Assembly (NCBI GenBank): GCA_030377865.1
Contig: JAUCGA010000002.1
Span: 1 to 64,000, forward strand
DNA length: 64,000 nucleotides
Reading direction: 5' to 3'
Source of the DNA: Anaerolineales bacterium HSG25
GTDB lineage: Bacteria > Chloroflexota > Anaerolineae > 4572-78 > J111
Under the pieces are notes generated by a model, which was not told the DNA's origin, did not search any database, and saw only the letters and a list, made by a program, of their open reading frames with translations. This document shows, piece after piece, positions 41,770 to 46,014 of this stretch. The translations under genes and the position numbers were made by a program. Position 1 is the first letter of the stretch. Every line of letters starts with the position of its first letter.

Positions 41770-41774
41770 ATTCT

Positions 41775-41925
41775 TCAATGCAGAATAACTATCTGCCCGC
41801 CGAGTCACCCTCCCGCCAACAAAAGCCACAAAAAAGAACCACGCTCAGAGATGGGATTTAACTGGATACCGTCGGCTGATTCTAGTCCGTTAAGGAGTTG
41901 ACCAACATGGACAGTGGATTGTGCA
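41775..41925 (-). repeat. LNGLES repeat, copy 1 (eroded 3' coding remnant)
   Basis: On the minus strand this repeat keeps an open frame reading QLLNGLESADGIQLNPISE and then RGSFLWLLLAGG before a stop. Related stretches occur at 44036-44170, 45053-45200 and 45862-46014. It appears to be the duplicated 3' end of an unknown gene. Confidence 0.5.
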
Positions 41926-41956
41926 TTCGATGGGCAGGTTATACAGTTGAGTAATA

Positions 41957-42343
41957 TCACCACAAGCGATGCACACCATAATCATCAAATGCCGTATCTA
42001 TGCTAATAATCGGTATTTGTTCATGGATTGCCTGTGCTATCAACAGTCGGTCAAACGGATCACGATGATGATATGGCAAGGTTGCCACAATGACGACATG
42101 GGCGATATCAATGCCCAACAGCGTGACATCATTGGTTTGCATGTGGTATGGGATATGTTGTTCGATAGGTTGTGTCAACTGCAATTTGCCGATACTAATT
42201 TTGATTGCCATTTCCCAAATGCTAGCAATGCTTAAAAGTGGCTGATTGGTCCGCTCCTCAATCAAAGTTCGAGCGGTGACACTGAGTTTGGTATCACCTT
42301 CTACAAACCACAAGAAACTATGGGTATCAAGCAGGAACTTCAT
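41957..42343 (-). CDS. PIN-domain toxin (VapC-like, Sll0205 type)
   Basis: 128 residues. A PIN ribonuclease fold with its acids: LLDTHSFLWFVEGD at the start, SIASIWEMAIK with the conserved Glu, HHRDPFDRLLIAQA and ISIDTAFDDYGV. Such toxins cleave RNA and are held in check by the antitoxin encoded upstream. Its ATG overlaps the antitoxin stop (ATGA, 42340-42343), the usual translational coupling. Third gene of a minus-strand unit driven from 42913-42941. Confidence 0.88.
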   Translation of the reverse strand: MKFLLDTHSFLWFVEGDTKLSVTARTLIEERTNQPLLSIASIWEMAIKISIGKLQLTQPIEQHIPYHMQTNDVTLLGIDIAHVVIVATLPYHHRDPFDRLLIAQAIHEQIPIISIDTAFDDYGVHRLW

Positions 42344-42573
42344 GGCATATATTCCTCAAAATCTTCCAATGGAGCATCAAAATCATCGGCCATGATAATG
42401 GTGCCTTTACCACTGCCAAACCGTGCTTGACGGGTATGTTTCGGCGGTTCTGTCAAAAACTTTAGTTTGATCTGGTCCATGACCCATTCGACCAACCGCA
42501 TTTGGTCGGTAAACGATAGTTGCTTAACCAGTTTTAAAACTGTTTCAAAGGTTATGATTGATTGTGTTTGCAT
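42340..42573 (-). CDS. DUF2281-like antitoxin of the PIN module
   Basis: 77 residues. Helical N-terminus (LKLVKQLSFTDQMRLVEWV) and a C-terminal toxin-binding tail ending MADDFDAPLEDFEEYM, the standard ending of DUF2281-type antitoxins partnered with PIN toxins. A Gly/Lys-rich GSGKGTII segment precedes the tail. The start lies inside the end of the upstream gene (29-base overlap), and the stop overlaps the toxin. Confidence 0.82.
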   Translation of the reverse strand: MQTQSIITFETVLKLVKQLSFTDQMRLVEWVMDQIKLKFLTEPPKHTRQARFGSGKGTIIMADDFDAPLEDFEEYMP

Positions 42574-42889
42574 TATATATATCCTCCAGAGTTAGATGTT
42601 TTGATACCTCTGGACGAGAAGGTTGTTGTAACCGATTTTGATAGATTTCCGCCGTAAGTATATCAAATTCAGGCTCATCTTGCCACAGACCATAAGCCAT
42701 CATAATCGGATAGACTTGGCCGGTCTTCAACTTTTTGGCAAAACTGGGGTCAGAATGGATAGTTTCGGTAACGGCTGATTGTTCTACATATTGCCGGATG
42801 ATGAGGGCTATCAAACGTAGTTGCTCAAATAACGGCTTGGGTTTTACAAACTGTTCATAGATTTGTTCAATGGTTATGGTAGACATGGT
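42545..42889 (-). CDS. Unknown small protein leading the PIN toxin operon
   Basis: 114 residues from ATG 42889, preceded by GGAGAG and a consensus promoter; the longer frame starting at 42934 would begin upstream of the transcription start. Sequence: TIEQIYEQFVKPKPLFEQLRLIALI helix, then EFDILTAEIYQNRLQ and HLTLEDIYNANT. The opening (STITIEQIYEQFV..LPL..QLRL) is like antitoxin N-terminal helices, so it may be an extra antitoxin-like component. No family recognised. Confidence 0.65.
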   Translation of the reverse strand, partial: TMSTITIEQIYEQFVKPKPLFEQLRLIALIIRQYVEQSAVTETIHSDPSFAKKLKTGQVYPIMMAYGLWQDEPEFDILTAEIYQNRLQQPSRPEVSKHLTLEDIYNANTINHNL

Positions 42890-42912
42890 ATCTCTCCACA
42901 TAAGATAATAGG

Positions 42913-42941
42913 AGTATAAAAGGTCGTCAAACAAATGTCAA
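42913..42941 (-). promoter_or_regulatory. Promoter of the PIN toxin operon
   Basis: On the minus strand: TTGACA (42941-42936), a 17-base spacer and TATACT (42918-42913). Near-consensus, 24 bases before the ATG at 42889. Confidence 0.75.
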
Positions 42942-43115
42942 AACAAAAATCAGCCCCGACACTATCAGAGCGTCGGAGCTGGTTGATTCTTCATCGCGGA
43001 ACTCTGTACCGGACAAAAACAAAAACTAGCCAGATTGAATGGAAATGTCATGCCCGAATGTAGTTATCGGGCATCTAAAATCCATAGATTCCCGCTAAAA
43101 GCGTAATGACCATGC
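42942..43115. repeat. ACCAGC hairpin copy 2 and CATTCCCGC-type repeat
   Basis: Bases 42949-42990 repeat the CAGCCCCGAC...GTCGGAGCTGG hairpin; 43047-43105 are related to the 16002 palindrome. No gene. Confidence 0.5.
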
Positions 43116-43143
43116 TTGTCAGATTACCAAAATTGGTTATAAT
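43116..43143 (+). promoter_or_regulatory. Promoter of the second PIN module
   Basis: TTGTCA (43116-43121), a 16-base spacer and TATAAT (43138-43143). It lies 80 bases before the antitoxin ATG at 43223 and downstream of the earlier in-frame ATG 43106, which is therefore rejected. Confidence 0.65.
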
Positions 43144-43222
43144 GACCTTTATAGTTAGTCAAAAAAGTTCTCGCCAATACCTAATGGTTTCAAAAATCTT
43201 TAGGGTCTCAAGGGTAATCATT

Positions 43223-43531
43223 ATGTCCACAATAACACAAGGTTCGCTGTTACAAAAAATTATTCGTATTTTACAACAATTATCTGAGAGTCAATTGCTT
43301 GTAATTTTTGAGTTTGCTCGTTTTTTGTTATCCAAAGAACAGATACCAAAAACTGAAACCTTATCTGTGAATGACCGTATCAATGTTGCTCTACAAGAAG
43401 CAGGTATAAAACCATACCAACCTGAAGAAGTCGCTCTGTATTTGGCAAGTCCCGAAAACCAAAATTGGCAGCCTCTTCTAGCAGGTGGCAAACCTGCCAG
43501 TGAACTCATTATTGAAGAAAGACGTACATGA
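43223..43531 (+). CDS. Antitoxin-like protein of the second PIN module
   Basis: 102 residues. N-terminal helices IIRILQQLSESQLLVIFEFARFLLS resemble DUF2281-type antitoxins; the C-terminus reads YLASPENQNWQPL and ends SELIIEERRT. Its stop overlaps the toxin ATG by four bases (ATGA). With its toxin frameshifted, the antitoxin may persist alone. Confidence 0.65.
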   Translation: MSTITQGSLLQKIIRILQQLSESQLLVIFEFARFLLSKEQIPKTETLSVNDRINVALQEAGIKPYQPEEVALYLASPENQNWQPLLAGGKPASELIIEERRT

Positions 43532-43991
43532 AAACAAGCGTAGGGCAGGTTTGTTATTTCGATAGTAGTGCTTTGGTTAAACGCTATTTCACTGAAATGG
43601 GTTCAGTTTGGGTGCAGACTCGATGTAGTGATTCCAAAAACTTGATTGTTATTGCAGAGATTACACGGGTTGAGATGGCAGCTGCATTTGCCCGCAAGGT
43701 GAGAGGGAAATTTATCACTCAGGCGGAATATCATAAGGCTCAAACTCAAATAATATCCCATATTCAAAACCAATATCGCCTCGTAGCTATCACCTCCCAA
43801 CGGATTGATACACATCTCAACACAAATTACGAGGCTATGATGCAGTTCAGTTGGCATGTGCGTTATATTTCAATCAACTGCTTGTGAGTAAAGTATTGTC
43901 ACCATTGATTTTTATATCAGCCGACAACGAATTGCTCATCGCTGCCCAAGCCGAAGGATTACAAACCGAAAACCCAAATAATTATCCTTAA
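43528..43991 (+). pseudogene. PIN-domain toxin broken by a one-base frameshift
   Basis: The first frame (43528 to about 43832) encodes YFDSSALVKRYFTEMGS and ITRVEMAAAFARK, the N-terminal acids of a PIN toxin. The conserved C-terminal part continues in another frame: LRGYDAVQLACALYF, then LIFISADNELLIAAQ, to a TAA at 43989-43991. The shift lies within about 43820-43835 (near ACACAAATTACGAGG). Read in one frame, the protein would be about 154 residues, the normal size. Either a real mutation or a sequencing error. Confidence 0.72.
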
Positions 43992-44035
43992 TCCTCTAAG
44001 TTGTTTCATCTTCGTCTAATCCGCTTAATTCACCG

Positions 44036-44170
44036 AATCCACGTTCTTATCCTCAATTCGGTATAACAATCTGCTCGCCAGACTCCCCACCCTGCAACAT
44101 GTACCATAAAAAAAAGCCACGCTCAGAGATGAGATTTAACTGGATGCCGTCGCTGATTCTAGCCCGTTAA
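44036..44170 (-). repeat. LNGLES repeat, copy 2
   Basis: Matches 45053-45200 and 45862-46014 closely. It carries a one-base deletion (GCCGTCGCTGATTC instead of GCCGTCGGCTG-type) that breaks the open frame seen in copies 1 and 3. It is followed by the duplicated GTTGCTATGCAGAATCGTCAA leader of the DUF3267-like gene. Confidence 0.6.
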
Positions 44171-44201
44171 GCGGTTGCTATGCAGAATCGTCAAGCCATG
44201 C

Positions 44202-44230
44202 TTGTCGGACTGAAATCGGCATGGTATGAT
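44202..44230 (+). promoter_or_regulatory. Promoter for a leaderless DUF3267-like gene, copy 1
   Basis: TTGTCG (44202-44207), a 17-base spacer and TATGAT (44225-44230). The ATG at 44238 is 7 bases after the -10 box, which is where transcription should start, so the mRNA is expected to be leaderless. Confidence 0.65.
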
Positions 44231-44237
44231 TCAAGCT

Positions 44238-44747
44238 ATGAATAATCAGCAAACCAAACCAAGCCAACAATCTTTCCTCTACAAACTCGGTGGCTATTAT
44301 GGTATCCCTCATGAATTGATCCATATTTTGGCCTATCGAATTATCCAAAAGCCATGTCGTTACCAATGGGGCGATGACCGAGTTATTCCCTTAGCTTATG
44401 ACACTGAAACTCGCCGAGAAAAACTATTCGTAACCCTCCTACCATTTGTAACTTTTATGGGCCTGGGCCTGTTTTTTCAACTGTTGTGGGTCATGTCGGC
44501 CTTCTTCATCAAGATGAGGCCGGAGCAATATTTTGTGGACGGCCCAACGTGGCATCTTCTCTTTTTTATTGTAGGGGGGCTTTTTATTGGATACGCCAGT
44601 ACGGCCCATTACGATTTAATCAAAGCTTACCATCTCCTATTCAGGAAAGATAGCGTTCAACAAGGTGGCCCAAAACCACATCGACGTGCCAAGGATGAGA
44701 AGCAACAAGGGAAACATCCACAAACAGCCAACCGTAGGATGTTGTAA
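44238..44747 (+). CDS. DUF3267-like membrane zincin peptidase, copy 1
   Basis: 169 residues from ATG 44238. IPHELIHILAYRI gives an HExxH zinc motif (H25, E26, H29) as in the DUF3267 putative zincin family, followed by two hydrophobic segments (about 60-82 and 100-122). An in-frame ATG at 44226 overlaps the -10 box and is rejected. The C-terminus from about 140 (VQQGGPKPHRRAKDEKQQG) is unlike the paralogue at 45261, which stops at that point, and overlaps the minus-strand gene 44637-45002; it is probably read-through into antisense sequence after loss of the stop. Substrate unknown. Confidence 0.75.
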   Translation: MNNQQTKPSQQSFLYKLGGYYGIPHELIHILAYRIIQKPCRYQWGDDRVIPLAYDTETRREKLFVTLLPFVTFMGLGLFFQLLWVMSAFFIKMRPEQYFVDGPTWHLLFFIVGGLFIGYASTAHYDLIKAYHLLFRKDSVQQGGPKPHRRAKDEKQQGKHPQTANRRML

Positions 44748-45002
44748 ATCACCGAACGGGCCGTGTTCAAAAAAATATCGCTCGGTCTTTGGCTCACGAG
44801 TGATGTCTTTGAATAAGAACAGCCCGATAAGTACATTGACCGAAGCACAACCGATGCTCAACGGATGGCTGTTAAAACCGACTGTTTCTAAGGCCAAACC
44901 TGCCATAAACCCACCGATAGCCCACAAACTGGTCATTCCTAAAATAAGACCTACTACCCGTAGATAATCTTGAGAGGATGGTTTGTTAGGTTTGTTGGTC
45001 AT
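44637..45002 (-). CDS. Small membrane protein convergent with the DUF3267-like gene
   Basis: 121 residues, with membrane segments about 15-38, 47-65 and 92-113 (FPLLLLILGTSMWFWATLL). GAGGAG lies 9-10 bases before the ATG. Its 3' part overlaps the end of the zincin gene on the other strand. A shorter homologue occupies the same position beside the second zincin copy (45654-45797): both have a YL(R/K).V...L....LW..GG(F/Y)M segment and end W.A..LN.I.P. Function unknown; the conserved pairing suggests a working unit. Confidence 0.65.
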   Translation of the reverse strand: MTNKPNKPSSQDYLRVVGLILGMTSLWAIGGFMAGLALETVGFNSHPLSIGCASVNVLIGLFLFKDITREPKTERYFFEHGPFGDLQHPTVGCLWMFPLLLLILGTSMWFWATLLNAIFPE

Positions 45003-45052
45003 AAATCATCACACTCCTCTAAGTTGTTTCATCTTCGTCTAATCCGCTTAAT

Positions 45053-45200
45053 TCACCGAATCCACGTTCTTATCCTCAATTCGGTATAACAATCTGCCCG
45101 CCAGACTCCCCACCCGGCAACATGTACCACAAAAAAGAGCCACGCTCAGAGATGGGATTTAATTGGATGCCATCCGCTGATTCTAGTCCGTTAAGGGTTG
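45053..45200 (-). repeat. LNGLES repeat, copy 3
   Basis: Open frame on the minus strand: LNGLESADGIQLNPISERG, then SFLWYMLPGGESGGQIVIPN and a stop. The best-preserved copy. Also shares the following CGAATCCACGTTCTTATCC segment with copies 2 and 4. Confidence 0.65.
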
Positions 45201-45224
45201 CTATGCAGAATCGTCAAACCATGC

Positions 45225-45253
45225 TTGTCGGACTGAAATCGGCATGGTATGAT
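45225..45253 (+). promoter_or_regulatory. Promoter for a leaderless DUF3267-like gene, copy 2
   Basis: Identical to copy 1: TTGTCG (45225-45230), 17 bases, TATGAT (45248-45253), then the ATG at 45261, 7 bases on. Confidence 0.65.
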
Positions 45254-45260
45254 TCAAGCT

Positions 45261-45677
45261 ATGAATAATCAGCAAACCAAACCAAGCCAACAATCTTTCC
45301 TCTACAAACTCGGTGGCTACTACCTCATCCCGCATGAACTGCTCCATGTGCTGGCTTTCCGGATTATCGGCAAGCCATGTCGCTATGAGTGGGGTAATGA
45401 TTATGTTCGTCCGCTTGTCAAAGAGTCGAAACGAGAGCGACTGTTTGTTTCGCTATTTCCGTTTGTGACCATTATGGGATTGGGGTTAATTTTTGGCTTG
45501 ATGTGGATATCATCAGCATTTTTTATCAACATTCGGCCTGAACGGTATTTTATTGACGGCCCGACGTGGCATGTTGTCTTTCTAATTCTTTGTGCCTTGT
45601 TCATCTTTTATAGTGGCACCGCGCATGGAGACTTGTTTAGTAGCTATTATATTCTATTTGGGCAAGATGAGATTTAA
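45261..45677 (+). CDS. DUF3267-like membrane zincin peptidase, copy 2
   Basis: 138 residues. The first 20 residues are identical to copy 1 (MNNQQTKPSQQSFLYKLGGY), then IPHELLHVLAFRIIG carries HExxH. Two membrane segments (about 62-82 and 100-120), and the ending YILFGQDEI gives the natural C-terminus of the family. A tandem duplication of promoter plus gene relative to 44202-44747; the 5' 100 bases are nearly identical while the rest has diverged. It overlaps the tail of the minus-strand 45654-45797 gene. Confidence 0.78.
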   Translation: MNNQQTKPSQQSFLYKLGGYYLIPHELLHVLAFRIIGKPCRYEWGNDYVRPLVKESKRERLFVSLFPFVTIMGLGLIFGLMWISSAFFINIRPERYFIDGPTWHVVFLILCALFIFYSGTAHGDLFSSYYILFGQDEI

Positions 45678-45797
45678 GATAATCGCCCAAAGCCAAACTG
45701 TAGCCCCAACAATAAGCATATAACCACCAGCAAACCATAGGCCAGAATAAGCTAGAATCCGAGTGACTATTTTCAAGTACGGGTTTGTTTTTTTCAT
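45654..45797 (-). CDS. 47-residue membrane protein, short homologue of the 44637-45002 product
   Basis: AAGGAG stands about 9 bases before the ATG (45797). The peptide MKKTNPYLKIVTRILAYSG continues LWFAGGYMLIVGATVWLWAI and ends LNLILPK: two hydrophobic stretches. It aligns with the first and last segments of the 121-residue neighbour but lacks its middle part, so it is either a compact version or an internally deleted one. Convergent with, and overlapping by 24 bases, the second zincin gene. Confidence 0.55.
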   Translation of the reverse strand: MKKTNPYLKIVTRILAYSGLWFAGGYMLIVGATVWLWAIILNLILPK

Positions 45798-45861
45798 TGT
45801 TTTGTCTCTCCTTGTTAACTCATTCCTATTGTTTGGTAATAATCTGGCGATCAGGTTAATC

Positions 45862-46014
45862 TGCTTAATTCACCGAATCCACGTTCTTATCCTCAATTCG
45901 GTATAACAATCTGCCCACCAGACTCCCCACCCGGCGATATGCGCCATGAAAAAGAGCCACGCTCAGAGATAGGATTTAACTGGATGCCGTCGCTGATTCT
46001 AGCCCGTTAAGCGC
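45862..46014 (-). repeat. LNGLES repeat, copy 4
   Basis: Same repeat, with the one-base deletion of copy 2. Here it is fused to the 3' end of the effector-associated-domain-like gene: the last residues of that protein (ALNGLESATASS) come from the repeat after the frame change. Confidence 0.6.

Follow-up and report, generated by a model that had tools for sequence, protein, structure and literature searches.

Short DUF3267-like zincins of Chloroflexota are paired with a convergent membrane protein through a codon-aligned gene overlap

A short DUF3267-like zincin and a small membrane protein encoded convergently with it form a two-gene module in five Chloroflexota genomes, and their overlapping ends provide a clear case, spanning two bacterial families, of convergent gene overlap maintained in exact codon register. 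The most economical reading is that the module would encode a reduced intramembrane protease core together with a dedicated membrane subunit, a reading to which we assign a probability of about 0.5. The window, i.e. the whole stretch of 64,000 nt that was analyzed, is contig C77 of a 5.0-Mb Chloroflexota MAG (80% complete) and holds two such units in tandem. All four genes claimed for it by an earlier note were found in place, and in both units the partner gene does overlap the zincin 3' end.

Zincin 1 (44238..44747, plus strand) is, by sequence, a short DUF3267-like membrane protease of 169 amino acids with HELIH at residues 25-29 and a distal Asp. Partner 1 (44637..45002, minus strand), which has a Shine-Dalgarno sequence upstream, encodes a membrane protein of 121 amino acids for which three TM helices are predicted and which carries the motif R-x-FF...GP...VGCLW. 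The two convergent genes share 111 codon-aligned nucleotides (44637..44747), and antisense to the CTA codon of zincin 1 Leu134 lies the stop of the partner, TAG. Zincin 2 (45261..45677, plus strand; 138 amino acids, HELLH at residues 25-29), whose tail is shortened by a stop codon absent from the sister species, overlaps the convergent partner 2 (45654..45797, minus strand) by 24 nt (45654..45677), and here the partner stop is antisense to the CTA codon of Leu132. The partners had been described as homologous proteins of 121 and 47 residues; their homology was confirmed and extends to the partners found in other units, but the 47-residue form is a remnant rather than a full partner, derived by an in-frame 216-nt deletion from a 119-amino acid protein that the sister species keeps.

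The assignment of both window zincins to the DUF3267-like HExxH proteins was borne out by PF11667 scores of 24.7 and 26.6 bits, which fall just below the cut-off of 27.1; in the wider set, 10 of 10 zincins matched this profile at E<=1 (best 7.2e-8), some of them above the cut-off. HE..H, Asp and Pro are invariant among the 10 full zincins aligned, and the zincin copy of genome G004 has lost HExxH. With ordinary DUF3267 proteins (PF11667) the short zincins share HExxH, the distal Asp, a Leu usually located at Asp+8 and the profile match, but they differ in architecture. Ordinary members mostly have about 170-290 amino acids with HExxH at residue 55 or beyond (55-389 in 30 of them), whereas in the short zincins HExxH starts at residue 14-25, no N-terminal membrane region lies ahead of it, and the protein stops 14-80 residues past the distal Asp; in DUF3267 proteins this N-terminal region has four TMs in 88% of cases (PMC13252029). 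The same 30 ordinary genes, used as controls, have no convergent membrane partner, unlike the short zincins. The HExxH helix and the distal Asp are also common to site-2 proteases (MEROPS clan MM), compared with which the short zincins have the core helices only; a search of solved structures with the zincin sequence gave no match. The partners, of roughly 105-121 amino acids and no known family, have three predicted TM helices, and all of these as well as the VGCLW..P motif are conserved. Homology between partner and zincin was ruled out, since comparison of the zincin profile with the partner revealed no similarity.

In each of the 13 units that have a partner ORF the two genes are convergent, with overlaps of 15-222 nt that are always a multiple of three, i.e. 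codon-aligned. The partner stop is the exact antisense of the same zincin Leu codon in 11/11 distinct units; this codon is always CTA or TTA, and the Leu stands eight residues past the distal Asp in intact copies. In G248 the CTA/TTA choice contrasts with a local usage near 8% (77 codons), and a Leu occupies the same position in 20 of the 30 ordinary DUF3267 proteins, being encoded by CTA in two of the 30 and by TTA in none. Because the units have a common ancestry, the counts cannot be treated as independent; what they reveal is a single ancestral junction that has persisted even though synonymous sites are close to saturation. Past the junction Leu the zincin tails vary and look like antisense read-through. 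This overlap phase accounts for 21% of convergent overlaps overall and for 32% in E. coli, and convergent overlaps usually originate by stop-codon loss (PMC2174442). A sequence scan revealed no terminator-like site at either window overlap. Antisense regulation through the overlapping 3' ends, as had been suggested, is possible, and the overlap may be only an inherited lock.

The distribution of the pair was analyzed in about 390 genomes from the class with profiles of zincin and partner, both of which were built from these same units and may therefore miss remote members. Fourteen zincin-partner units were found in five genomes, and strong partner matches were confined to these same five (G000, G001, G002, G004 and G248), all of which except G004 also gave strong zincin matches. 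The window holds two of the six paralogues of its genome; of the four outside it, those on contigs C69, C99 and C125 are each accompanied by a complete convergent partner, and in that on C9 the partner is reduced to its C-terminal part. G001 belongs to the same genus as the window's genome, and G248 to another family, 13 other genomes of which are without the zincin. The partner ORF is kept in 13 of the 14 units, the 14th retaining a 3' remnant, and co-occurrence of strong matches is complete in the approximately 390 genomes. The zincin and partner trees are congruent (Mantel, 40 of 20000 permutations), and computable dN/dS values outside the overlap (0.14-0.32 for the zincin, 0.18-0.56 for the partner) indicated purifying selection. 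The conserved pairing claimed by the earlier note is strongly supported by the unit counts, the co-occurrence and the trees, and the co-occurrence held for the short subfamily, partnerless homologues being limited to DUF3267 proteins of the ordinary, longer type and to further remote relatives. No further strong pair was found in a phylum-wide draw, plasmids, phages or viral contigs. Short DUF3267-like genes of family f21 (L055, L056 and L057), which have no partner, lie directly after a pterin carbinolamine dehydratase-like gene in three genera.

Either gene can decay alone. Two of the six partners in the window's genome (unit 2 and C9) are truncated while their zincins are still open, and the reverse is seen in G004, where a strong partner match accompanies a short zincin remnant without HExxH. 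Therefore, the link between the two genes is not absolute, which argues against an obligate mutual dependence as well as a simple toxin-antidote interpretation. A protease-membrane partner system, as suggested by the earlier note, is likely in view of the conserved pairing.

We propose that this self-contained module would encode a two-subunit intramembrane protease. The zincin would be a reduced catalytic core of the DUF3267/S2P clan, made of the HExxH helix, one TM and then a TM ending in the distal Asp, and the convergent partner would be a dedicated membrane subunit that supplies the missing helices in a complex with it. The partner may gate or escort a transmembrane substrate, as proposed for TmcE with TmcP. 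The gene ends are locked together, the strand opposite the partner stop encoding a conserved core Leu, and this arrangement may couple the expression of the two genes. TmcP is a DUF3267 protein and an experimentally supported S2P-clan protease that requires TmcE, a small 2-TM membrane protein modelled where TM5-6 are missing, and the TMcin authors suggest that regulators of the TmcE kind also serve other DUF3267 proteases (PMC13252029, preprint). Both systems pair a DUF3267 zincin with a small, family-less membrane protein. In contrast to TmcP, the zincin described here is without the N-terminal region, and its partner is convergent and overlapping, whereas TmcE shares one operon with TmcP; the tmcA, tmcBC and tmcD genes of TmcP-TmcE clusters were not seen by eye near the zincin-partner units (ORF lists, about 4 kb, 8 units). 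Several points stand against the two-subunit reading. The partner has three long predicted hydrophobic helices and not the two TMs with a beta sheet between them of TmcE, and it is unlike the zincin profile; the AlphaFold2 model of the zincin is poor (pLDDT 58.7), those of both proteins come from shallow alignments of window and L008 sequences, and PDB fold searches with either of them found nothing. The pair adds to the DUF3267 proteases a membrane partner, not named before and genetically tied to them, that lies outside both TMcin clusters and Gram-positives, and it makes the suggestion of the TMcin authors testable.

The window units belong to an array (41772-46013) in which four copies of a repeat of about 157-184 nt, termed R (41772..41900, 43992..44173, 45015..45196 and 45857..46013), separate toxin-antitoxin and zincin units. 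In the sister species five repeat copies separate such units likewise at another locus. There the same units, VapBC modules and repeat occur in other order and between unrelated flanks, which indicates that the segment has been copied, rearranged and moved to another place. Beyond these two arrays the repeat does not occur in full, but only as matches of about 30 nt; several copies have an open minus strand (NGLESADGIQLNPISERGSFLW). Between the repeat and the zincin start the identity of units 1 and 2 is 92-100%, and past it about 62%, the fall taking place within one or two 60-nt blocks with a sharp edge near 44300. PIN-domain and DUF2281 modules are also carried by the array, whose loci differ in the two sister species, and the window's second gene for a PIN-domain (VapC-like) protein (43528-43991) is shortened and frame-shifted with respect to an intact 158-amino acid copy of the sister species (L037:11086-11562). 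Integron cassette arrays likewise have one kind of repeat between cassette-like units that include toxin-antitoxin genes, but integron cassettes were rejected because no TIGR02249 integrase match above the cut-off was obtained in three incomplete genomes and the repeat had no attC-like fold, its folding not exceeding that of shuffled sequences (z -0.28 and -0.01). Phage or plasmid cargo was rejected, as searches of plasmids, phages and viral contigs gave no matches, and so were known defence or phage families, with no matches including PADLOC. The units sit in unrelated neighbourhoods, and visual inspection of ORF lists reaching about 4 kb from 8 units showed no shared third gene or transporter. 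A reverse transcriptase and a short protein that resembles sulfatase-modifying factors and contains an Asn-rich stretch (L040:4466-6183) lie close to the C125 unit, in the manner of a diversity-generating retroelement, and a DUF4160 gene with a small companion (L040:6471-7120) directly adjoins the unit.

Strict pairing and co-inheritance would also fit a partner that is the substrate of the zincin, i.e. a membrane protein (regulator or precursor) cleaved by it, and the DUF3267 protease of TMcin clusters cleaves a transmembrane precursor (PMC13252029). We regard this explanation as unlikely, given that the partner is polytopic and not single-pass, that its conservation covers all predicted TMs and VGCLW..P, unlike that of a precursor with a discarded leader, and that transporter or modification genes were not seen recurring nearby (about 4 kb, 8 units, by eye). 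Less likely again is a mobile harm/immunity pair, comparable to the adjacent VapBC modules, in which the zincin would damage a peptide or membrane proteins unless restrained by the partner. Its patchy (5 of about 390 genomes), multicopy occurrence and its movement within an array of PIN-domain and DUF2281 modules, at different loci in two sister species, are consistent with such a pair; however, two zincins (zincin 2 and that of C9) have outlasted the truncation of their partners, for which intact paralogous partners could cover, and PADLOC, plasmid, phage and viral-contig searches were empty.

Least probable of these is that the overlap is a frozen accident, in which functionally unrelated membrane proteins travel together and their shared 3' codons are hard to separate by mutation. 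The usual origin of convergent overlaps by stop-codon loss (PMC2174442) and zincin tails resembling antisense read-through agree with such an accident, but overlaps can become shorter (24 nt for unit 2 and 15 nt for G004) and yet a separated short zincin was not found; the congruence of the two trees over several lineages and the 30 ordinary DUF3267 genes without such a partner also argue against it. As an extension of the two-subunit reading, the core and gate subunits of a split site-2-type protease might be antisense-coded with selection on the overlap to balance the two mRNAs (leaderless protease versus Shine-Dalgarno partner), which we consider a rather doubtful proposal.

Identical promoter-like sites (TTGTCG-17-TATGAT with a TG extension) precede zincin 1 (44202..44230, plus strand) and zincin 2 (45225..45253, plus strand), each 7 nt before the ATG. 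Their identity, on which the earlier note had laid weight, stems from recent mosaic tandem duplication and thus is not by itself evidence of selection. Judged from sequence comparison, the recurrence of the promoter in divergent paralogues is such evidence: in every one of the nine units from the genus, TG-n-TAT[CG]AT lies 6-7 nt before the zincin ATG, and the G248 unit has TTGACA-18-TATAAT five nt before it. A leaderless zincin mRNA is accordingly predicted for these units, but not for the G002 units and the G004 remnant (four units), where the close promoter is absent and the start appears Shine-Dalgarno led or ambiguous. Of the 42 genes in the window, none but the two zincins has such a -10 located 4-9 nt before the start.
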